DNA of 64,000 nucleotides from NCBI RefSeq assembly GCF_023736155.1, contig NZ_JAMLJJ010000003.1, forward strand, positions 310,001 through 374,000, given 5' to 3'. Below the pieces are notes generated by a model that did not search any database, was not told the origin of the DNA, and saw only the letters and a program-made list of their open reading frames with translations. The position numbers and the translations under genes were made by a program. This DNA is from Larsenimonas salina. Its GTDB lineage: Bacteria; Pseudomonadota; Gammaproteobacteria; Pseudomonadales; Halomonadaceae. Positions 6,672 through 35,408 of the stretch are shown here, in pieces (within the stretch, counting starts at the first letter, position 1; the number at the start of each line of letters is the position of its first letter).

Positions 6672-8744
6672 TTAGAAATCCTTGCAGAGACGCAAGGCGT
6701 CATAGATGGCGGCGTGCGTGTTGCGTGGCGCAGTGCAATCGCCAATCCGGAACAGCAAGAAGCCCTCACCTGACTCGCTCAGGCTCGGTTGCGGCTCAAT
6801 CGCGTACAACGCTTCCAGGTCGATCTGACCCTTGTTGCGCGACTGTGATTTGAGGGCGTAGTACAGCTCTTCGTTGGGTTTGACCCCGTTTTCGACGACG
6901 ATCTGATCGACCACGCGCTCTTCCATCTCGCCGGTGTACTCGTTTTCAAGTACGGCCACGAGCGCGGGACCTTCACGGTAGACCTTATGCAGTGCGAGGT
7001 CAGACGTCATGATGACTTCTTTCTCGTAAAGCGTACGGTAGTAGGTCGGGAAGGTAGTGCCGCCTACGGCAGCGCCCGGCTTGATGTCGTCGGTCACGAT
7101 CTCGACCTTGGAGCCCTTGTCAGCCATGTAATCGGCTACAGACACGCCCGAGAATTCACAGATCGTATCGAAGACCAGTACGTTCTTGCTGGGCTCGACC
7201 TTGCCGTCGAGGATGTCCCAGCTGCTGACGACCAGGCTCTTTTCGGGATCGGGATCAAAGCCCCAGTCCGGCACCTGCGTTACGTGCGGCGTGCCGCCGG
7301 TGGCGAGCATGACGATGTCCGGACGCAGGTCCTTAATGGTTGCTTCATCAGCCGGTGTGTTCAGGCGAACATCTACGCCCAGACGATCAAGCTCAAGCTG
7401 GTACCAGCGCGTGATACCGGCCATCTGATCGCGACCCGGCGCACGAGAGGCCGTTGTGATCTGTCCACCGATCTGGTCCTTGGCTTCAAAAAGCGTCACA
7501 TCGTGGCCGCGCTCGGCGCTGACACGTGCAGCTTCCATACCACCAGGGCCACCACCGACAACCACGACCTTGCGGAGCGGGCCCTTGGTCTTTTCGATGA
7601 TGTGCGGCAGCCCCATGTACTCACGAGACGTCGCGCCGTTCTGGATACAAAGAACGTCAAGACCCTGGTACTGACGGTCGATGCAGTAGTTCGCACCAAC
7701 GCACTGACGGATCTGGTCGGTCTGACCCATTTTGATCTTGGTGATCAAATGCGGGTCGGCGATGTGGGCACGGGTCATGCCGACGAGGTCGACGTGGCCG
7801 GCTTCCAGAATACGGCTGGCCTGGTTCGGGTCCTTGATGTTCTGCGCATGGATTACAGGCACATTGACGACAGTCTTGATGCCCGCAGCCAGGTGCAGGA
7901 ACGGCTCCGGCGGATAGCTCATGTTCGGAATGACGTTGGCAAGCGTGTTGTGCGTGTCACACCCGGAGCCCACGACACCGAAGAAATCGACCTTGCCGGT
8001 CGCGTCGTAATAGGCCGCGATCCGCTTCATTTCTTCGTGATCAAGACCGTCCGGATGGAACTCGTCACCAGTGATACGCATGCCAACCACGAAGTCGTCG
8101 CCGACTTCTTCGCGAACGGCTTTTAGAACTTCCATACCAAATCGCATGCGGTTTTCAAAGCTGCCGCCCCATTGGTCGGTTCGCTTGTTGACGCGCGGGC
8201 TCCAGAACTGGTCGACCAGATGCTGGTGAACCGCAGAAAGCTCGACCCCATCAAGGCCGCCTTCTTTTGCACGGCGCGCCGCCTGGGCGAAATCACCGAT
8301 GATGCGCCAGATCTCTTCTTCCTCGATCGTCTTACAGGTCGAACGGTGGACCGGCTCACGGATGCCGGACGGCGACAGCAGTGTTGACCAGTTGAAACCA
8401 TCCCAACGTGAGCGACGGCCCATGTGAGTGATCTGGATCATGATCTTGCCGCCATGCTTGTGCACGGCATCGGCCAGATTCTGGAAGTGCGGGATGATGC
8501 GGTCGGTCGACAGGTTGACCGAGCTCCACCAGGCCTGCGGGCTGTCGATCGATACGACCGAGGAACCCCCGCAAATGCAAAGGCCACAGCCGCCCTTCGC
8601 CTTCTCTTCGTAATATTTGACGTAGCGGTCGGTGGTCATGCCCCCGTCGGTTGCATAGACCTCAGCGTGCGCTGTGCTGACCACTCGGTTACGAATGGTC
8701 TGGCTGCCGATCTGAATCGGCTCGAACATTGCTTCAAAAGCCAT
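6672..8744 (-). CDS. dgcA: Dimethylglycine demethylase subunit DgcA
   Basis: A 690-residue flavoprotein of the trimethylamine dehydrogenase / 2,4-dienoyl-CoA reductase family that oxidatively demethylates dimethylglycine to sarcosine. An old-yellow-enzyme type FMN barrel spans about 1-340. The iron-sulfur segment has C348, C354 and C366, but the position expected for another Cys is A351. A Rossmann domain then begins with VVVGGGPGGMEAA (394-406). Length is normal for the family. ATG at 8744 has an AGGAGAG ribosome site 11 bp after the preceding gene. With DgcB and EtfAB it forms the second step of betaine breakdown. The Ala at 351 may be typical of the demethylase subgroup rather than a defect. 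Related betaine or proline-betaine demethylases are the main alternative. Confidence 0.91.
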   Translation of the reverse strand: MAFEAMFEPIQIGSQTIRNRVVSTAHAEVYATDGGMTTDRYVKYYEEKAKGGCGLCICGGSSVVSIDSPQAWWSSVNLSTDRIIPHFQNLADAVHKHGGKIMIQITHMGRRSRWDGFNWSTLLSPSGIREPVHRSTCKTIEEEEIWRIIGDFAQAARRAKEGGLDGVELSAVHQHLVDQFWSPRVNKRTDQWGGSFENRMRFGMEVLKAVREEVGDDFVVGMRITGDEFHPDGLDHEEMKRIAAYYDATGKVDFFGVVGSGCDTHNTLANVIPNMSYPPEPFLHLAAGIKTVVNVPVIHAQNIKDPNQASRILEAGHVDLVGMTRAHIADPHLITKIKMGQTDQIRQCVGANYCIDRQYQGLDVLCIQNGATSREYMGLPHIIEKTKGPLRKVVVVGGGPGGMEAARVSAERGHDVTLFEAKDQIGGQITTASRAPGRDQMAGITRWYQLELDRLGVDVRLNTPADEATIKDLRPDIVMLATGGTPHVTQVPDWGFDPDPEKSLVVSSWDILDGKVEPSKNVLVFDTICEFSGVSVADYMADKGSKVEIVTDDIKPGAAVGGTTFPTYYRTLYEKEVIMTSDLALHKVYREGPALVAVLENEYTGEMEERVVDQIVVENGVKPNEELYYALKSQSRNKGQIDLEALYAIEPQPSLSESGEGFLLFRIGDCTAPRNTHAAIYDALRLCKDF

Positions 8745-25398: not shown

Positions 25399-26760
25399 AT
25401 GCTCGATCAGGACACGATTGCCGCGCTCGCAAGCCCACCCGGACGCGGCGGCGTCGGTGTGATTCGCTTCTCAGGCCCTCGTGTGCCGGAGCTTGCCGAA
25501 CAGTTTCTCGGCTTCATGCCGACGCCCCGTCATGCGCATTACGGCCCGTTCGTGGGCACGAACCAGCAGGTGCTCGACGAAGGGCTTGCGCTCTACTTTC
25601 CCGCCCCGCACTCCTTTACCGGCGAGCACGTGCTGGAGCTTCAAGGACACGGCGGCCCGGTCATCATGGATACTCTGCTCGAGCACGCCATCACCCGGGG
25701 CGTCCGACTGGCGCGGCCGGGTGAATTTTCCGAGCGCGCCTTTTTGAACGACAAGCTGGATCTCGCCCAGGCCGAGGCCATCGCGGATCTGATCGAGGCC
25801 AGCTCCCGTCAGGCGGCTGAAAATGCCCTACGCTCGCTTCAGGGCGAGTTCTCGACGCGCGTCGGCACCCTGGTGCAACAGCTCATTGAGCTTCGGGTCT
25901 ACGTCGAGGCCGCCATCGATTTCCCCGAAGAGGAAATCGACTTTCTGAGCGATGGCCATGTGGCCAACAAGCTCAGTCAGGTCAAGACCGCTCTCGGCGA
26001 GGTTCGCGCCGCGGCCGCGCAGGGCACCCTGATGCGCGAGGGCATGACCGTGGTCATCGCCGGCCGGCCCAACGCCGGTAAATCAAGCCTCTTGAACCGG
26101 CTGACGGAGCAGGATACCGCGATCGTCACCGACATCGCCGGCACCACCCGAGACGTTTTGAAGGAATACATTCATCTGGATGGCATGCCCCTGCACGTGG
26201 TCGATACCGCCGGACTTCGGGATACGCCGGACGCGGTCGAGCGCATTGGCGTACAGCGTGCGTGGCAGGAGATCGAGACGGCCGACCGGGTGCTTTTGAT
26301 GGTCGATGCCGCCGAGACCGAGGCCACCGACCCTATGACCATCTGGCCCGAATTTGTCTCTCGCCTACCCGACCGGAGCCGGCTGACGCTGGTGCGCAAC
26401 AAGGTCGACACCACTGGTGAAGCCCTCGGCTCGGAGTTAACCGCCACCCCGCCGGTGGTCCGGATGTCGGCCCACACCGGGGCAGGCGTGGACACACTAA
26501 AGGACCATTTGAAAACCGTAATGGGATACTCCGCGACCACCGAAGGCCGCTTCTCGGCACGGAGGCGCCACCTCGAAGCGCTTGACCGTGCCAGGGTCGC
26601 GCTCGACAACGGCGAGGCGCAGCTTTTTGGGGCCGCTGCGGGTGAGCTTCTGGCCGAAGACCTGCGCGCTGCACAGGAAGCACTCGGCGAAATCACCGGC
26701 GAATTCAGCGCCGATGACCTGCTCGGTGAGATCTTCAGCAGTTTCTGCATCGGAAAGTGA
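25399..26760 (+). CDS. mnmE: tRNA uridine-5-carboxymethylaminomethyl modification GTPase MnmE
   Basis: GTPase of 453 residues that works with MnmG to modify the wobble uridine of several tRNAs. The N-terminal tetrahydrofolate-binding domain begins [18 protein letters not shown]. The inserted G domain has P-loop GRPNAGKS (222-229), DIAGTTRDV, the G3 motif DTAGLRDT and NKVD. The C-terminus ends in the diagnostic FCIGK. ATG at 25399 gives the family N-terminus; the methionine at 25369 is out of pattern. Its partner mnmG is 26 kb away here. Confidence 0.96.
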
Positions 26761-26788
26761 TTACACACATTGCCTTACATATCGATGA

Positions 26789-28078
26789 CTACTGCACCAT
26801 CGGTATTTGAAGAGGCAGGGGCAACCGAGAGGCGCCCAAACGGCGGTAGGCGGTTTCCGGGGTCATTTTGGCTGAAAAAGCGCGAAGCTGATTGATGATC
26901 GTCTCAAGCGCGGGGGTCAGTACGTCATCGGCGCGGCGCGTGATACCGATCGAACGGCGGGTGCCTTCCAGGGCGATGGGAAGAACACACAGCTCGCCGC
27001 TTTCGATTTCATAATGAAGCTGGTGAAGAGAGGCCACTGCAACTCGCTGGCTGTACTGCAGTAATGACCTGAGCATGCCTAGATTGCCGGTTTCGATCTC
27101 CACCTTGGGCGAGGCTAGGCCTGCATGGTCGAACACGCGCTCGAACGCCTCACGAGAAGGTGTGCCTGCACGAGGCGTGATCCATTCGGCTGTCTCCAAT
27201 TCCTTGAGTGATACCCGCAGTCGGCGCGCCAGAGGGTGCGTTCGGTGAGTGACGATGGACAGGCAGTCATCGAACAGCGCTTCCTGCTCGAGTTCCTTGC
27301 CAGGCGCTTCCGGGCGCAGGGCGCCGATCAGTAGGTCGATTTCGCCGCAGCGAAGCGCCTCGACCAGTCCGTCGTAGGTACCGTCGATCACGGACACACT
27401 GACCTCGGGCAGGCTCTTGCGCAGGGCATCGATGGCCATCGGCACCAGCTGGGTGGCTGCCAGTGGAAGACAGCCGATGACCACGTGCCCCTTGATCCGC
27501 CCTTGAAGGGCGATCAAATCCTGACATGCCATGGTCAGCTCACGAAGAGCCAACCGCGCATGACGCGCCAGAATTTCGCCGCTGTCGGTCAAAAGCATGC
27601 CACGGCGGGTACGCATGAAAAGCTCCATACCCACATGGCTCTCCAACTGACGAAGACTTGCACTGATCGCGGGCTGAGTAAGTCCCAGCGCACGTGCGGC
27701 CCGGGGCTCACTGTGCACCCGCGCAAGCGTGACCAAAGTCATCAGTTGACGCTGATTGAGATGCTGGATAAGCCGCTCACACCCACTTTTATTGGAGTGC
27801 AACGCGTTAAGCGCCGCCTCGGCAGAGGCGAATTGATCTAGGGCGCGCCTGAAGCGAGTGATCACTAATCTACCTGACGGCGTCGCGGTCATACCCCGGT
27901 GATGACGTTCGAACAACGCACAACCGAGTTCCTGCTCCAACTCTTGGATCGCACGAGTGACAGCCGGCTGTGAATAGTGAAGGTGCACCGAGGCCCGGTT
28001 GACACTCCCCGTGTCGTCCACCGCCAGCACCGCTCTGATTCGGCGCCAATTCGGCTCGAATTGAATGTCGCGTTGCAC
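26789..28078 (-). CDS. LysR-type regulator with two N-terminal helix-turn-helix domains
   Basis: A 429-residue regulator, about 120 residues longer than normal LysR proteins because it has two complete LysR DNA-binding domains. The first spans about 10-85 (SVNRASVHLHYSQPAVTRAI, then LFERHHRGMTATPSG). The second spans about 107-185 (RAARALGLTQPAISASLRQL, then LFMRTRRGMLLTDSG). A LysR substrate-binding domain follows from about 195 to 400. GTG at 28078 has a perfect AGGAGG spaced six bases; the TTG at 28093 is less likely. It is divergent from the galB-like gene, so it probably controls the aromatic cluster with a pathway intermediate as coinducer. The effector is unknown. Confidence 0.9.
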   Translation of the reverse strand: MQRDIQFEPNWRRIRAVLAVDDTGSVNRASVHLHYSQPAVTRAIQELEQELGCALFERHHRGMTATPSGRLVITRFRRALDQFASAEAALNALHSNKSGCERLIQHLNQRQLMTLVTLARVHSEPRAARALGLTQPAISASLRQLESHVGMELFMRTRRGMLLTDSGEILARHARLALRELTMACQDLIALQGRIKGHVVIGCLPLAATQLVPMAIDALRKSLPEVSVSVIDGTYDGLVEALRCGEIDLLIGALRPEAPGKELEQEALFDDCLSIVTHRTHPLARRLRVSLKELETAEWITPRAGTPSREAFERVFDHAGLASPKVEIETGNLGMLRSLLQYSQRVAVASLHQLHYEIESGELCVLPIALEGTRRSIGITRRADDVLTPALETIINQLRAFSAKMTPETAYRRLGASRLPLPLQIPMVQ

Positions 28079-28306
28079 GGCTCGCCTCCTCAACGCATCC
28101 CATCCGCTCGCTGCGGCTCGCGTTAAGCCATTATTAAGTTATTAAGCAGGCTGTATCTTACTGGCGACCGCCTGACCGAAGTATTCAACAAAGGACGTAT
28201 AAGCAAAGTGCATGTCTGATTCGATCAAATGCATTACGCCCGGCGCGGCACTCGGTGAGAGTCTACGACTCAACACCCGTTTATTGACATTGGAAAGGAT
28301 CTTTCG
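28079..28306. promoter_or_regulatory. LysR regulator/galB divergent promoter with tandem 8-mers
   Basis: The control region of the aromatic cluster. Two perfect head-to-tail TTATTAAG copies (28131-28138 and 28139-28146) lie just right of a GTTAAG, forming a likely regulator-binding block, though AT-rich repeats can arise by chance. The divergent promoters are expected here. Confidence 0.5.
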
Positions 28307-29044
28307 ATGAGCATGCCCCTACAGCAACGTGCAGGATTGGTGGTAAGCGCACACTCAGCCGATTTCGTCTGGCGGGCAGGCGGCGCGATCGCCCAGCATC
28401 GCGGTCAAGGTATTGATATGCATGTCGTCTGCTTGTCCTACGGTGAGCGCGGTGAATCTGCAAAGCTGTGGCGCAAAGGCATGTCGCTTGATCAGGTCAA
28501 GCAGACGCGTCAGGAGGAGGCGCTCAAAGCCGCCGAGGTGCTCGGGGCCAAAGTGACGTTTCTCGATCTCGGCGATTACCCTCTTCATGTCGACGATGAA
28601 GCGCTGTTCAAACTGGCCGACATCTACCGCAAGGTTCAGCCGGAGTTTGTGCTGACTCACTCGCAGCATGACCCTTACAACTATGACCACCCCCGCGCCA
28701 CCGATGCCGCGCAGGAAGCGCGCATTATCGCTCAAGCTGAAGGCTATCGCCCTGGCGAAAAGATCCTTCATGCGCCCCCGGTGTTCTGCTTCGAACCGCA
28801 CCAACCCGAACAGTGTCACTGGCGACCGGACGTTCTCTTGGACATCACGGAGGTCTGGGACAAGAAACGACAGGCCATCGAGTGCATGGCCGGCCAAGAA
28901 CACCTGTGGGAGTACTACACCCGTGTCGCGCTTCAACGGGGCGTTCAGGCCAAGCGAAATATCGGTATTACTTCCGGCAAGGACATTCAATACGGCGAAG
29001 GCTATCAACGCATCCTGCCGCAGGTCGTGGAGACGCTGTCATGA
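28307..29044 (+). CDS. galB: PIG-L family hydratase, GalB-like (4-oxalomesaconate hydratase)
   Basis: A 245-residue LmbE/PIG-L metalloprotein. The first metal motif is AHSADFVWR (H16, D19); a second histidine-rich segment is [20 protein letters not shown] (116-135). In Pseudomonas putida a protein of this family, GalB, hydrates 4-oxalomesaconate in gallate catabolism. The adjoining galC- and galD-like genes supply the flanking steps, so the same role is the best inference. ATG at 28307 follows GGAAAGGA. Its stop overlaps the next start by 4 bp (ATGA). Without the neighbours it could only be called a PIG-L deacetylase. Confidence 0.82.
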
Positions 29045-29742
29045 CACGTAATCTGGTCGTTCAAAACCCGCCTCGAGTGGATCAAGCTCACTGCGACGCT
29101 TTGGCAGGCTACGGGGTCGCTACGGTACACGAGGCCATGGGCCGAATCGGCCTTCTGGATGCGGGCATTCGACCGATCCAATCCGGCACCAGAATTGCTG
29201 GCAATGCCGTTACCGTGCTGGCAGCGCCGGGCGACAACTGGATGCTCCACGTCGGCGTAGAGCAGTGCCGGCCAGGCGATATTTTAGTCGTGGCCACCAC
29301 GTCACCCTGCACCGATGGTTATTTCGGCGATCTCCTGGCGACGTCACTGATGAGCAAAGGCGTTCAAGGCTTGATCATCGATGCCGGCTGCCGTGACGTC
29401 ATGGATCTGCGGGAGATGGGGTTCCCGGTCTGGTCACGGGCGATTTCCGCTCAAGGTACCGTCAAGGCAACGCTTGGCTCGGTCAACGTGCCGGTCGTCT
29501 GTGCTGGCCAACAGGTTCGAGCCGGCGACGTTATCGTTGCCGACGACGATGGTGTTGTGTGTGTGCGGCGTGAGGACGTAGTCACCAGCATCGAGGCGTC
29601 CAAGGCCCGTGAAGCGCGCGAAGCGGAAAAGCGTGGCCGTCTGGCTGCCGGTGAGCTGGGGCTCGACATCTATAATATGCGCGAGAGTCTTGAGCGCGCC
29701 GGACTCGAATACGTCGATTACGCAAGCGAATACGGAGCCTAG
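29041..29742 (+). CDS. galC: RraA-fold aldolase, GalC-like (4-carboxy-4-hydroxy-2-oxoadipate aldolase)
   Basis: A 233-residue protein of the RraA / class II pyruvate aldolase group. It would cleave 4-carboxy-4-hydroxy-2-oxoadipate to pyruvate and oxaloacetate, the last step of gallate or protocatechuate 4,5-cleavage. The key metal/substrate segment is [17 protein letters not shown], with R118, D119 and D122; GDLLATS and IVADDDGVV segments fit the family. ATG at 29041 overlaps the galB stop by 4 bp, indicating coupling. A methionine in the same frame far upstream lies inside galB and is disregarded. RraA-like RNase E inhibitors share the fold but the context favours the aldolase. Confidence 0.86.
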
Positions 29743-29744
29743 TT

Positions 29745-30824
29745 ATGCAGACGGCGATTCCTTGCATGCAGATACGCGGCGGCACCTCGAAAGGCGTGTA
29801 CTTTCTTGAGCAGGATCTCCCTCCAGAGGGCGCGCTCAGAGACCACGTCTTGCTGGCGGTCATGGGCTCGCCTGATCGCCGTCAGATCGATGGTCTGGGA
29901 GGCGGGACCTCTCTGACCAGCAAGGTCGCTATCGTCTCGCCCTCCTCTCACCCCATGGCCGATGTCGACTATCTGTTCGCACAGGTTGTCGTTGATGACG
30001 CGCACGTCGATTACGGTCAGAACTGTGGCAACATTTTGGCCGGAGTGGCCCCGTTCGCGCTCGAGTCTGGGTTGATCGATGCACACACGCCGACAACGTC
30101 CGTGCGGGTGCATATGGTCAACTCCGGTCAGTTGGCGACCATCGATGTTGCAACGCCGAACGGCAAAATCGAGTATCAGGGTACGACTCACATCTCCGGG
30201 GTACCCGGAGAGGCCGCAGCGCTGACGGTCTATTTCGAAGACACCGCCGGTGCCAATTGTGGGGCACTGATGCCCACCGGGCACGTCAGGGATCGACTGG
30301 CCGAGACCGATGTGACGTGCATCGACAACGGCATGCCCGTAGTGCTCATTCGGGCCGAAGATCTTGGCATTAGTGGCCACGAGTCACCGCAAGACCTCGA
30401 GCGCAACGACACGCTACGGGCCAGACTGGAAGCGATTCGACTCGAGGCTGGCCCCGTGATGAACCTGGGCAATGTGAAAGCACGCACCGTACCAAAGCTC
30501 TCAATCATTGCCCCAGCCACCGGCTCAGGCACTCTGACAACACGAACGTTCATACCTCACCGATGCCACGAGGCCATCGGTGTACTGGGCGCCGTAAGCG
30601 TTGCAAGCGCGTGTCTGATCGAAGGATCGGTAGCCGCGAGCTATTTCGATGCGCCACCTTCTGGTCGGGCCGAGATATCGATCGAACACCCGACCGGTGA
30701 CTTCACGGTATCACTTATGACCAATGATCAGGGGCAAATCGAGCAAAGCGGTGTCATTCGCACGGCCCGATTGCTGTCTAAGGGGCATGTGTATATTCCG
30801 AGCGCCGTATGGCCTGGCGTTTGA
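29745..30824 (+). CDS. galD: PrpF-family isomerase, GalD-like (4-oxalomesaconate tautomerase)
   Basis: A 359-residue PrpF/diaminopimelate-epimerase-fold isomerase. It begins MQTAIPCMQIRGGTSKGVYF, the signature of the family, and has DGLGGGTSLTSKVAIV near 45-60 and NCGNILAGVAPFALE near 90. GalD in pseudomonads converts keto and enol forms of 4-oxalomesaconate before the hydratase acts. ATG at 29745, two bases after the galC stop, has GGAG. PrpF proteins also isomerise aconitate, but the galB-galC neighbours favour the aromatic pathway. Confidence 0.88.
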   Translation: MQTAIPCMQIRGGTSKGVYFLEQDLPPEGALRDHVLLAVMGSPDRRQIDGLGGGTSLTSKVAIVSPSSHPMADVDYLFAQVVVDDAHVDYGQNCGNILAGVAPFALESGLIDAHTPTTSVRVHMVNSGQLATIDVATPNGKIEYQGTTHISGVPGEAAALTVYFEDTAGANCGALMPTGHVRDRLAETDVTCIDNGMPVVLIRAEDLGISGHESPQDLERNDTLRARLEAIRLEAGPVMNLGNVKARTVPKLSIIAPATGSGTLTTRTFIPHRCHEAIGVLGAVSVASACLIEGSVAASYFDAPPSGRAEISIEHPTGDFTVSLMTNDQGQIEQSGVIRTARLLSKGHVYIPSAVWPGV

Positions 30825-30903
30825 AGCCCACGCCATCAGCGCTCATGTCACGCACGAGGCAGACTTCGAACCGTCTGGACAAGCCATTCATGGAGCACAA
30901 ACA

Positions 30904-31881
30904 ATGACAAATTCATCCACCTCAAGCGTGTTTCAAGAGCCTTGCTTCGACCTGGCGCATTTAGCGCACGTCGAAATGCTGACGCCGACCCCGGAAAAAA
31001 GCCTCTGGTTCTTTACCGAGGTTATGGGCCTGACCGTCAGTGCCACTAAAAGCAATTCAGTCTACCTGCGCGGATGGGACGACTATGAGCATCACACCCT
31101 CAAGCTGACCGGCTCGAACACCTCCGGCATCAAGCATCATGCCTTTCGAACCACAAGCCAAGCCGCGCTCGAGCGGCGCGTCGAGGCGCTGAAACGCCAC
31201 AACACCGAGTTCGAATGGACCGAGGGAGACCTAGGACACGGCCCAGCCTGCCGGTTCAGAAACCCGGACGGGCACGTCGTTGAGCTTTATTACGACACCC
31301 AATGGTATCAGGCGACCGATGGCACTCGGCCCTCACTTAAGAATCAGGCCGCTCGCATTCCCGGTCGGGGTGCCAACCTTCGGCGTCTGGATCACCTCAA
31401 CCTATTGGCAAGCGACGTTAAGAAAACCCGAATTTTCATGCAGGATGTGCTTGGGTGTCGACTGACAGAGCAAATCGTATTTAATGATGGCTCGGAAAAG
31501 GGAGCATGGTTTAGCGTCAACAACAAAAGTTACGACCTTGCTATTTCCGAAGATCATAGCGGCTCGAGCGGGCGCTTTCACCACATGACTTACGCGGTAG
31601 ACAGCCGCGAGGAAGTGCTTCGCGCCGCAGACATATGCCTGGACAACGGCGTCTACATCGAAACGGGCCCTCACAAGCACGCCGTGCAGCAAACGTTTTT
31701 CCTCTACGTCTAGGAACCCGGCGGCAACCGCTTCGAAATCTGCAACGCTGGCGCCCGGCTGATTCTAGCCCCGGACTGGCAGACCGTTATCTGGAACGAA
31801 GAAGAGCGCAAGAAAGGTCAAGCCTGGGGGCTTCAAACCATCAAATCGTTTCATACCCACGGTACACCGCCGGTCGAATAA
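30904..31881 (+). pseudogene. Type I extradiol dioxygenase (VOC family) interrupted by in-frame TAG
   Basis: A catechol 2,3-dioxygenase-like gene of 325 codons broken by an amber codon at 31711-31713 (codon 270). ATG at 30904 has GGAG. The N-terminal VOC domain starts near AHLAHVEMLTPTPEKS; the catalytic C-terminal domain has H164 (RRLDHLNLLAS) and the HH pair at 226-227. The third iron ligand would be E278 in EPGGNRFEIC, which lies after the TAG. The same frame continues for another 55 codons to a normal TAA at 31879 with unmistakable family sequence. A Tyr codon (TAC or TAT) to TAG, or a sequencing error, is the simplest explanation. If real, the truncated product should lack ring-cleavage activity. 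The substrate is unknown; gallate, protocatechuate or a catechol are candidates. Confidence 0.88.
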
Positions 31882-31906
31882 CTGGCAGTTCGAGTCTGCA
31901 ACGCTT

Positions 31907-31938
31907 AAGGCATTCATCTCGCATGAATGCCTTTTTAG
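31907..31938 (+). terminator. Rho-independent terminator of the gal-like operon
   Basis: Arms AAGGCATTCAT and ATGAATGCCTT around a 5-base loop followed by TTT, 25 bp after the final stop of the dioxygenase gene. Confidence 0.88.
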
Positions 31939-32069
31939 TTTGCGGCGCGCCTATATCTGCGGCATAGCCATAGTGAATGACTTATCGGTAAAAAACATAT
32001 TTCTTGAACACTTTTAAAGCACACTGAGCAAGCGCACTGCACCCTGTTTTTCGACTCTGGAGACCCGAC

Positions 32070-33896
32070 ATGCACAGCCCTTTCAGGCAACAATCCTATT
32101 GGCGGCACGCCCTCCTATCACTAGCGATATTTATCCTTTCACCGCTCGCAGCACAGGCAAGCCCGGACTACGCCTTTTCAAGCGACAAGACGCCGCCGGC
32201 CATGATAACCATCGCGTCATTGCCGGTTGTGCCCGCTCAAGCCAGCTGCGCTGATCTCGCACATGTCTCGTTGACCGAACTGGGGGGCAGTGGCAGCCAG
32301 GTGGACAAAACCCAACAGACTACCATCAACGATCACGCGGTCTGTCAGGTTCAAGGAACGCTTGCCAAGAACATTCATTTCGAGGTCCGACTGCCGGTCG
32401 ATACGTGGGCGCAGCGCTATCTTCAGCTCGGTTGCGGAGGCTTGTGTGGCCAAATCACGCTGGAGGCCGGTGCCGCAGACGGATGCATACCGCTTGATAA
32501 CGGCAATTTCGTGACGGCTGCAACCGACATGGCCGGTGGCAACGACGGTACCTTTGGCAAGAACGAAGCCCGACGCCGAGACTTTGCCTACAAAAGTCAA
32601 CATCTTACAGCCCTGGCGGCCAAGGCATTGATCAAGACCTATTACGGAAAAGCGCCGACCTATGCCTATTTCGACGGTTGCTCAGACGGCGGGCGCGAGG
32701 CGCTGATCGAAGCGCAGCGTTTCCCTGACGATTTCGATGGCATCATCGCAGGCGCGCCCGCCATGAACTTCGTGATTCAAAACGGGCTCTACCACGCATG
32801 GCAAGCTCGAACCAATACTGATAAAAACGGCAAGGCGATTCTTACTGCCGACAAACTGCCCATGCTGCATAACGCGGTAGTGGCACAGTGCGATGGCCTT
32901 GATGGCCAAGTAGATGGGTTGATTTCCGCCCCCAGCCTCTGCCAGTTCAACCCGGCAACGCTTCAATGCCCTGCCGATCTCAAAGACACAAGCCACTGCC
33001 TGACCGCGCCCGAAGTGGCGGTCGTGCGTAAATTCTACGAAGGCCCGCTCGACCCTGACACGGGCGAGCACCTTTCTCTTGGCGGGCCGATGCCCGGTTC
33101 CGAGTTGAATTGGCAAGGCATTTACGTACCCGAAACCCATTCCGATCCGCTGTTCAGTCGCTCGATCGCACTGGGAGCACTGCGCTATGTGATTTTCAAG
33201 AACAATCCGAGCAAGAACTTCTCACTCGATGACATCACCTTCGACAAGGCGTATGTAGAAAAGCTGACGTCGCTTCATACGCTTTACGATGCGACCAGCC
33301 CCGACCTTTCAGCTTTCAAACAGGCCGGTGGAAAGCTGATTCTATGGCAGGGTTGGGCCGACCCTCATATTTCGCCAGCCTATCTGGTCGCTTATCATGA
33401 GGCGATTGCCAAGACGATGGGCAAAAAGACGGCCCATCAGTTCGAGCGGCTCTATATGCTGCCGGGGGTATCGCACTGTTCCGGTGGTGAAGGTCCAAGC
33501 AAGATCGATCTATTGACACCGATGATGGCGTGGGTTGAACGGGGCCATGCTCCAAAGGCCATCAATACCTACGCCGTTCAATCCAGCACCCAGAATAGCT
33601 TCGGCCAACCGACCGGTACCGCCTCAGCTGCCTCCAAGGACAGCGATGCTGGAAATGACGAACACGGCGATAAAGACGCTCACGGCCCAAGCCCAGCAGC
33701 TCGACAGAGCGACCGTAACGCGCTCGTCACTCAGTCGCGGCCGGTATTTCCTTATCCGTTCGTTGCCAAATACGACGGCAAGGGCGACCCGAACAATGCC
33801 AGCAGTTACATTCAGGGTCCGCCCTTGCAGAGCATGTCGTTCAAGAATTGGGCTGGGGCAGCTCTTTATACTCCTTATAGAGGTCAAACCAACTAA
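32070..33896 (+). CDS. Secreted tannase / feruloyl esterase family protein
   Basis: A 608-residue esterase with a signal peptide (ALLSLAIFILSPLAAQA, cleavage near A30), so it acts in the periplasm or outside. The family CS-D-HC catalytic set is complete: C204-S205 in FDGCSDGGREALIE, D431 in WQGWADPHISP, and H469-C470 in PGVSHCSGGEGPS. Tannases of this family release gallate from gallotannins; others release ferulate. Its position beside galBCD-like genes points to aromatic-acid esters. ATG at 32070 follows GGAG. A terminator separates it from the gal-like genes, so it has its own promoter. A low-complexity Asp/Gly/Ala linker (about 525-560) precedes a C-terminal tail. Confidence 0.88.
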   Translation: MHSPFRQQSYWRHALLSLAIFILSPLAAQASPDYAFSSDKTPPAMITIASLPVVPAQASCADLAHVSLTELGGSGSQVDKTQQTTINDHAVCQVQGTLAKNIHFEVRLPVDTWAQRYLQLGCGGLCGQITLEAGAADGCIPLDNGNFVTAATDMAGGNDGTFGKNEARRRDFAYKSQHLTALAAKALIKTYYGKAPTYAYFDGCSDGGREALIEAQRFPDDFDGIIAGAPAMNFVIQNGLYHAWQARTNTDKNGKAILTADKLPMLHNAVVAQCDGLDGQVDGLISAPSLCQFNPATLQCPADLKDTSHCLTAPEVAVVRKFYEGPLDPDTGEHLSLGGPMPGSELNWQGIYVPETHSDPLFSRSIALGALRYVIFKNNPSKNFSLDDITFDKAYVEKLTSLHTLYDATSPDLSAFKQAGGKLILWQGWADPHISPAYLVAYHEAIAKTMGKKTAHQFERLYMLPGVSHCSGGEGPSKIDLLTPMMAWVERGHAPKAINTYAVQSSTQNSFGQPTGTASAASKDSDAGNDEHGDKDAHGPSPAARQSDRNALVTQSRPVFPYPFVAKYDGKGDPNNASSYIQGPPLQSMSFKNWAGAALYTPYRGQTN

Positions 33897-34097
33897 TGCT
33901 TGACGCCGGGCACAGTCCCGTTGCTTTGGCGCGCTTCAGTTGAGGCGCGCCGAAACGCGTACATGCATCTTGAGCATCATCGCATTAAGAGCGGTCTATC
34001 GTGTAACAATGCTTTTCAGACTGCTGCCATCATGGCAGTCTCAACACTCCTTGTGCCTACACCAGCCCACTGGATACGTCTTTCAAGAGCCTTGCCG

Positions 34098-35408
34098 ATG
34101 ACTGCATCGAGTCCACCGTCAGTTCCCTCTTCACTGCATGTTCGCGCATGCCTTGAGTGTGACTTGATCAGTGAAGTGCCCCGATTATCACCGGGCGAAG
34201 CCGCACACTGCCCACGCTGTCACCATGTGCTGGCTCAGCGCCACAACAAGCCTGCCACTCATGTGGTGGCTTACGCCCTGAGCGCTCTAATTGCGCTGGG
34301 ACTTGCGCTGCCGTTTACGTTCATTTCGTTCGAGGCGCGCGGCGTGAAACGCGACATGGGGCTGAGCGAAGCAGCCAATACGTTGCTGCAACAGCACTAC
34401 GAAGCACTGTCGTTTCTGATCTGGTGGGGCATCATCATCCTGCCGGCGATCTATCTGAGCGTCAGCATCTATCTGCACTTGGGACCGCTCTGGAACTATA
34501 CTCCGGTGGCGCGCCGTGGCTTCGGCAGGCTCTTGAAGCGCATGGAGCCCTGGATGATGGCCGATGTCTTTCTGATCGGGGTGCTGGTCAGCATGGTCAA
34601 GATTCTGGCCCTTGCCGAGATCGGCTTCGGCGTGTCGTTCTGGGCCTACTCCGCCTTCGTGATCTTGGTGCTTAAAACGACGCGAGTGATGGACCACGAC
34701 TGGCTCTGGACCTTCATTGGCGGGCCCGACCGGCCGCTAAGACACGCCCGCGCCGGCAGGACAGGCCGCCAGCAGAACATGACGGGCTGCCCGGTGTGCT
34801 ACACCTTGAATGAGCTTGATTCGGATCAACGCGGACACTGTCGTCGCTGTAGTGGCGCCCTGCGGCTTCGCAAGTACAGAAGCCTTCAGACCACGCTTGC
34901 CCTGCTGGTTACATCAATCATTCTTTACATTCCGGCCATGACGCTTCCGATCATGACCGTAACCACCCTCGGCGACAGCTCTCCCCAGACCGTGATCGCG
35001 GGTGTGATGCACCTTTGGGGCTCCGGTGACTGGCCTATCGCCCTGATCATTTTCGTGGCAAGCGTGGTCATCCCCATTGCCAAGATTCTGGCGCTTGGGT
35101 GGCTGAGCTGGAAGGTCTGGCGGCCTTATCCCTCCAGGCCGCTGCTGCGCCATCGGCTTTACAGCATGACCGAGCTGATCGGACGGTGGTCGATGATCGA
35201 TGTGTTCGTGGTGGCACTTCTGGTCGCCCTGGTGCGCCTTGGGTCTGTCATGTCGGTCTACCCGGGTTTAGGCGTGATCGCCTTTGCCGGGGTCGTCATT
35301 CTTACTATGCTGGCAGCTATCTGCTTCGATCCCCGCTTACTGTGGGACAACCCTCGAGATCAACAGGACAGTGTGAATGAGTTCGTCGCTCCCACAAGCA
35401 CTTCGTAA
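34098..35408 (+). CDS. pqiA: PqiA-type integral membrane protein
   Basis: A 436-residue inner-membrane protein of the paraquat-inducible PqiA family, which partners MCE proteins in lipid transport across the envelope. Two repeats each begin with a zinc-ribbon-like pair: CLECD with CPRCHH near 20-40, and CPVC with CRRCSG near 230-255. Each is followed by four hydrophobic segments. ATG at 34098 is preferred over an in-frame ATG at 33900, which would add an unrelated basic tail. The gene overlaps pqiB by 32 bp. Confidence 0.91.
   Translation: MTASSPPSVPSSLHVRACLECDLISEVPRLSPGEAAHCPRCHHVLAQRHNKPATHVVAYALSALIALGLALPFTFISFEARGVKRDMGLSEAANTLLQQHYEALSFLIWWGIIILPAIYLSVSIYLHLGPLWNYTPVARRGFGRLLKRMEPWMMADVFLIGVLVSMVKILALAEIGFGVSFWAYSAFVILVLKTTRVMDHDWLWTFIGGPDRPLRHARAGRTGRQQNMTGCPVCYTLNELDSDQRGHCRRCSGALRLRKYRSLQTTLALLVTSIILYIPAMTLPIMTVTTLGDSSPQTVIAGVMHLWGSGDWPIALIIFVASVVIPIAKILALGWLSWKVWRPYPSRPLLRHRLYSMTELIGRWSMIDVFVVALLVALVRLGSVMSVYPGLGVIAFAGVVILTMLAAICFDPRLLWDNPRDQQDSVNEFVAPTSTS

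Follow-up and report, generated by a model that had tools for sequence, protein, structure and literature searches.

Organization of the locus

The window, by which we mean the whole 64,000-nucleotide stretch of DNA analysed here from the salt-loving bacterium Larsenimonas salina, carries genes in the order galB-galC-galD-dioxygenase, with a tannase gene after them and a divergent LysR gene before them. The plus-strand series begins with a galB-like gene for a PIG-L-family protein, a candidate hydratase (28307-29044; PF02585, 87 bits) that is 75% identical in Phytohalomonas tamaricis. It continues with a galC/ligK-like gene for 4-carboxy-4-hydroxy-2-oxoadipate aldolase (29041-29742; its scores pass the cut-offs of NF006731, at 373 bits, and of TIGR02798, at 347 bits) and a galD-like gene for 4-oxalomesaconate tautomerase (29745-30824; NF033377, 510 bits, cut-off 440). 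The markers of a gallate-type operon, that is, tautomerase, aldolase and PIG-L-type hydratase genes, are all present adjacent to the dioxygenase frame (30904-31881, plus strand). A terminator-like hairpin with a T run, a consensus match only, follows at 31907-31933 on the same strand and probably marks the end of the gal operon, with the dioxygenase as its final gene. The tannase/feruloyl esterase family gene beyond it (32070-33896, plus strand; PF07519, 463 bits) is intact and encodes 608 aa.

The galB, galC, galD and tannase products match their family models over nearly the whole length, in keeping with the statement in the first-pass annotation that the later genes of the pathway look intact. 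These three gal genes lie upstream in the operon, yet act later in the proposed pathway. The LysR-type regulator gene, divergent from galB (26789-28093, minus strand), has PcaQ as its best NCBIfam match (237 bits, below the cut-off of 303.8). Its product is long, at 434 aa in the window and 409 aa in P. tamaricis (L038, 2928-4157, minus strand), and HTH_1 stretches occur twice in the window protein, as though its DNA-binding domain had undergone duplication.

The cluster occupies an island of about 7.4 kb between mnmE and a pqiA-like gene (26757-34142, delimited by congener alignment), absent from both congeners compared. Alignment to congener G001 runs to 26756 and resumes at 34163; alignment to congener G002 likewise runs to 26756 and resumes at 34143. 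The mnmE/pqiA junction spans 338 bp in G002, and in G001 it is filled by other ORFs over about 3 kb, which indicates that the island was gained or lost within the genus; the junction is a variable spot there. Gal-type genes sought in the compared G001 and G002 stretches at this junction gave no match.

An in-frame TAG separates the dioxygenase from its predicted third iron ligand

The type I extradiol dioxygenase frame opens with an ATG that has a Shine-Dalgarno-like GGAG upstream. It is interrupted at codon 270 by an in-frame TAG (31711-31713, plus strand), as read from the window sequence, and consists of a 269-residue open part and a 55-codon tail (31714-31881) that ends in TAA at 31879-31881. 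In a profile search, the tail alone matched TIGR03211 (E = 1.2e-10). The 269-residue part covers profile positions 2-252 and the tail positions 254-303. The truncated protein scores 272.3 bits against this model, compared with 329.6 bits when read through (cut-off 320.2) and 350.4 bits for the intact P. tamaricis orthologue. A TAG-interrupted extradiol dioxygenase gene followed by family sequence, as the first-pass annotation described it, is thus a real observation at both the stop and the tail. A separate tail peptide made from an internal start was ruled out: the reading frame of the tail holds no ATG, GTG or TTG, and the sole alternative is a CTG at 31759.

Alignment places the iron ligands at His164 (31393-31395), His227 (31582-31584) and Glu278 (31735-31737), all on the plus strand, the first two upstream of the stop and the third eight codons past it. 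Counted by eye, they line up with positions 155, 214 and 267 of homoprotocatechuate 2,3-dioxygenase, the iron ligands of that enzyme. The assignment of E278 as the third ligand, made earlier from the motif, agrees with this alignment. The 2-His-1-Glu site is in frame and is present in 53/53 aligned rows, the window's own E278 standing after the stop. Tyr210 (31531-31533, plus strand) occupies the column of residue 200 of homoprotocatechuate 2,3-dioxygenase, its acid-base His; the canonical acid-base His is therefore absent from the window enzyme.

Homologues and constraint on the tail

Homologues were collected by a scan of named genomes, which yielded 44 loci, and by searching 275 genomes from the family, 9 of which (own genome counted) gave a match at E 1e-60 or better; the resulting 53 rows probably hold the P. 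tamaricis gene twice (L038 and L010, on contigs of equal length). At column 270, the window alone has a stop. The remaining rows carry Y (37), F (9), W (3) or I (3), so that the same TAG, whose conservation in many relatives would have counted against the first-pass inference, occurs in 0/52. The nearest homologue, from P. tamaricis, is 83% identical and uninterrupted, with a sense codon at this column; the comparison with a close relative's orthologue suggested in the first-pass annotation thus returned an intact gene. The two congeners compared yielded no orthologue, only a paralogue at 27-29% identity.

The tail is conserved as closely as the sequence before it. The window departs at 0 of 78 columns that are invariant in 37 relatives, and 21 of these columns lie in the tail. 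Against P. tamaricis, pN is 0.075 in the tail and 0.077 in codons 160-269, and synonymous sites approach saturation in either stretch; 7 amino-acid changes were counted among 39 base differences, lower than in all 5000 random placements. About 183 unchanged nonsynonymous sites give, by the rule of three, a rough 95% bound of about 1.6% neutral divergence since constraint ended. For scale, the island flanks diverge by 3.6-5.6% from G001. The absence of departures, this bound and a tail pN like that of the adjoining codons together indicate that constraint ended recently, if at all, and they put numbers on the earlier argument that an undamaged tail implies a very recent event.

A relaxation of constraint that preceded the stop was not seen in the dioxygenase itself, where unique changes number 5 in the window and 3 in P. 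tamaricis (p 0.73). Elsewhere in the operon, galD has 46 unique changes in the window versus 21 in P. tamaricis (p 0.003), and the window galD departs at 8/120 columns invariant in the others. This excess speaks mildly against a wholly unrelaxed operon. The longer tree branch of the window (0.16, versus 0.051 for P. tamaricis) likewise counts mildly against full constraint.

Origin of the stop codon

The explanation that we consider probable is that the TAG is a real, very recent nonsense mutation, which produced a null allele of an otherwise intact gal-operon dioxygenase gene on an island absent from the congeners. Of the three options offered in the first-pass annotation (recent loss of function, sequencing error, or suppression of a single stop), recent loss is the best supported, given the conserved tail and the sense codon in all 52 other rows. 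A sequencing or assembly error, in a strain that has a sense codon and a working enzyme, is unlikely but deserves the most weight among the alternatives: the stop is the sole lesion in the gene, no invariant column is lost, and the assembly is a draft of 21 contigs in which a single wrong base could suffice. Against it stand a genome completeness of 99.88% and the scarcity of internal stops relative to G001, and modern short-read assemblies seldom carry substitution errors in their consensus. A first, unfiltered count had found in-frame stops in 29/298 matched G001 ORFs, by eye 8 TAG, 13 TAA and 22 TGA (8/43 TAG). Filtering removed 33 ORFs in which third positions did not account for most of the differences, as well as ORFs aligned over <80%, and disregarded stops lying up to 50 codons from the start or 20 from the end. 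The filtered 404-kb comparison retained internal stops in 5/258 comparable genes (4 TGA, 3 TAA, 0 TAG), with 1/276 in the reverse direction; all 8 TAGs of the unfiltered count were removed by the filters, and the dropped ORFs may include true pseudogenes. At least two of the five remaining cases look like over-extended ORF starts and would be artefactual: the RNase P gene case is one such start, and in the PLP-enzyme case the stop precedes the domain. The filtered counts led us to reject an error-ridden or heavily decayed genome and indicate that the assembly is not riddled with errors.

Decoding of the TAG by suppression or programmed read-through, such that some full-length enzyme is made, would account for a tail fully conserved at its invariant columns, and a neighbouring DUF1932 gene in the same cluster of P. 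tamaricis is likewise interrupted by one in-frame TAG ahead of an intact tail. This explanation is nevertheless very improbable. Pattern scans for tRNAs with a CUA anticodon, which require a purine following the anticodon as well as a standard T-arm and which an odd tRNA could escape, returned 8 loci here and 7 in genome G010, and ARAGORN recognized no such tRNA in any of the 15. TAG is an ordinary terminator, ending 32/307 coding-like ORFs sampled over 464 kb of this genome and 33/244 in G010. Coding-like extensions after the stop follow 5/32 TAG codons here (the dioxygenase being one), 13/95 TAA and 18/180 TGA, with no clear TAG excess, and no other row shares the stop. On terminator usage, tRNA searches and extensions alike, a change of genetic code or an amber suppressor was rejected; recoding of TAG is unlikely, and the suggested suppression of a single stop is disfavoured. 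An RNA element near the stop was also rejected, since an Rfam scan within 1.6 kb of it gave no match up to E 0.5 and the fold of the 80 nt after it is not unusual (z -0.03). Retention of the 269-residue product for a new, non-catalytic role is more remote still, its sole support being the intact upstream part. The truncation is absent from all relatives compared and would be expected to break the metal-binding domain, and the still-conserved tail makes it too new for long selection. The evidence as a whole thus favours a recent nonsense mutation, and the case looks like gene loss of the ordinary kind.

The P. tamaricis DUF1932 dehydrogenase gene lies between galD and the dioxygenase (L038, NZ_PVRV01000012.1, 6986-7906), with its TAG at 7274-7276 and its tail intact. 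The TAG column is Gln in 4/4 aligned homologues. In the window, the gap between galD and the dioxygenase is too small for a DUF1932 gene. Separate nonsense mutations that arose independently in two genes suffice to account for the window and P. tamaricis stops. Elsewhere in the L. salina genome, two genes that are open in G001 may be further pseudogenes: an FhuF-like gene (G000, contig C15, 145850-147103), which has two in-frame stops, and a gene for a short-chain dehydrogenase (same contig, 120411-121136), which has one.

Other ring-cleavage enzymes in the genome

A search of the L. salina genome (G000) for the LigA domain (PF07746), which GalA and LigAB carry, gave 0 matches. Its two LigB matches score as HpaD_Fe (442 bits, over cut-off) and as 4,5-DOPA dioxygenase (208 bits, under the cut-off of 233). 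The other full-length type I homologue is HpaD, the homoprotocatechuate 2,3-dioxygenase (427 bits), present in one copy on contig C17, where the HpaD_Fe gene lies about 2.6 kb away. This HpaD belongs to the same superfamily as the interrupted enzyme but is 28% identical to it and has His at column 210. With no LigA match, and with the LigB proteins and the type I homologue fitting other enzymes, no other candidate for making 4-oxalomesaconate is visible.

A clade with Tyr in place of the acid-base His

Column 210 divides the homologues into two groups, with Tyr in 39/53 rows (own counted) and His in 14/53. All Tyr rows are at least 58% identical to the window, and all His rows fall below 50%. 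In a tree of 55 rows, which carries a long-branch warning, the Tyr210 rows form one side of a single branch (support 99/97).

The two groups also differ in their neighbours. At least one PIG-L, galC or galD homologue lies near the gene at 27/34 named Tyr loci versus 0/10 His loci (Fisher p 8e-6, a value that ignores relatedness). DUF1932 dehydrogenase genes occur near 15/34 Tyr loci, and DUF6282 genes near 7/34, namely Thermus and Meiothermus loci and one Chloroflexota locus. In Thermus brockianus (L040, 9217-10512), the DUF6282 gene sits between the dioxygenase and PIG-L genes. A LigA-domain match is absent in 13/15 genomes with a Tyr-clade gene, a set made up of the L. salina genome and the genomes of 14/34 named Tyr loci; 14 control genomes likewise gave none. 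The sole positives of this search are two matches, one of 101 bits in a Microvirga genome with the cluster and a weak one of 26 bits in an Actinomadura genome.

From this gene content, the Tyr-clade dioxygenase may be a type I enzyme that cleaves gallate or protocatechuate. Where galD and tannase occur, we infer that 4-oxalomesaconate would be formed directly from gallate; where DUF1932 and DUF6282 occur, it would instead arise from protocatechuate via a dehydrogenase and a lactone hydrolase, and the DUF6282 protein of the Thermus-type clusters could be that hydrolase. The broader proposal is that the clade is undescribed and that its members carry out the native ring cleavage in a 4-oxalomesaconate-type pathway, acting on gallate or at the 4,5 position of protocatechuate. 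They would do so in Deinococcota, Chloroflexota, Actinomycetota, Alphaproteobacteria, some Halomonadaceae and probably Acidobacteriota, as a non-homologous replacement of the type II enzymes LigAB, GalA and DesB. We regard this proposal as evenly poised. Against a gallate reading, 7/34 named Tyr loci carry none of the three gal-type genes, some on contigs that end nearby; the halomonad loci L115 and L116 lack gal-type genes; Thermus-type loci carry DUF6282 with no galD match; and one Microvirga genome has the cluster plus a LigA protein. The substrate may therefore differ between members, protocatechuate being one example. Searches of open-licence literature, mostly at the level of titles and the opening parts of abstracts, showed no recognizable description of a type I gallate or protocatechuate 4,5-dioxygenase, nor of the Tyr clade itself.

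Fold and closest known systems

The model of the P. tamaricis orthologue (pLDDT 87.2) shows a two-domain VOC fold. Its top matches in fold searches are type I enzymes, the nearest PDB entries being 3lm4 and 7q2a, and it superimposes on 3lm4_D with Z 43.3 and an rmsd of 1.8 over 314 residues at 36% identity. The interrupted enzyme resembles the catechol 2,3-dioxygenase family TIGR03211 (XylE, 1mpy; LapB; AphC, 7q2a; the RHA1 enzyme, 3lm4) in fold, in its two His and one Glu ligands and in the C-terminal EPGGNR.E motif; against the family cut-off, the frame scores just above when read through and below as truncated. It differs from that family in the Tyr that replaces the acid-base His, in its 4-oxalomesaconate-route neighbours and, in the window copy, in the stop.

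The closest solved sequence is PDB 9wgj chain A (E 2.9e-111), which likewise carries Tyr in the acid-base column, resembles the interrupted enzyme in a C-terminal stretch and is not among the fold-search matches listed. It is deposited as 'Catechol 1,2-dioxygenase', a name ill-suited to a vicinal-oxygen-chelate protein. The gallate dioxygenases GalA and DesB, together with LigAB, are comparable in the proposed reaction and in the downstream-pathway genes galB, galC and galD. They belong to the type II LigB superfamily, whose fold is unrelated, and the L. salina genome gave no LigA-domain match. AromaDeg places gallate dioxygenases in the LigB superfamily (PMC4250580).

Consequences of the lesion and implications

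Judged from its neighbours, the gene in its intact state most likely fed the pathway with 4-oxalomesaconate made from gallate that the tannase set free, and its aromatic substrate probably came from plant tannins. The truncated protein, which ends before the Glu iron ligand and is 56 residues short at its C terminus, would be expected neither to bind Fe(II) properly nor to cleave the ring, and later pathway enzymes would then be left with no ring-cleavage product as substrate. GalR of Pseudomonas is reported to respond to 4-oxalomesaconate as its effector (PMC12314914). If the LysR regulator of the window answers to 4-oxalomesaconate in the same way, the operon would stay uninduced and the lesion would be hidden from selection. 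By analogy with GalR, dioxygenase loss that silences the operon would also relax selection on the remaining genes.

The nonsense lesion is unremarkable in itself: it shows a catabolic gene shortly after being lost, while the remaining pathway genes are still present. If the proposal for the Tyr clade is true, these enzymes would represent a second solution to the reaction performed by the type II enzymes and a natural test of the role of the acid-base His, and annotations that read 'catechol 2,3-dioxygenase' would need correction.
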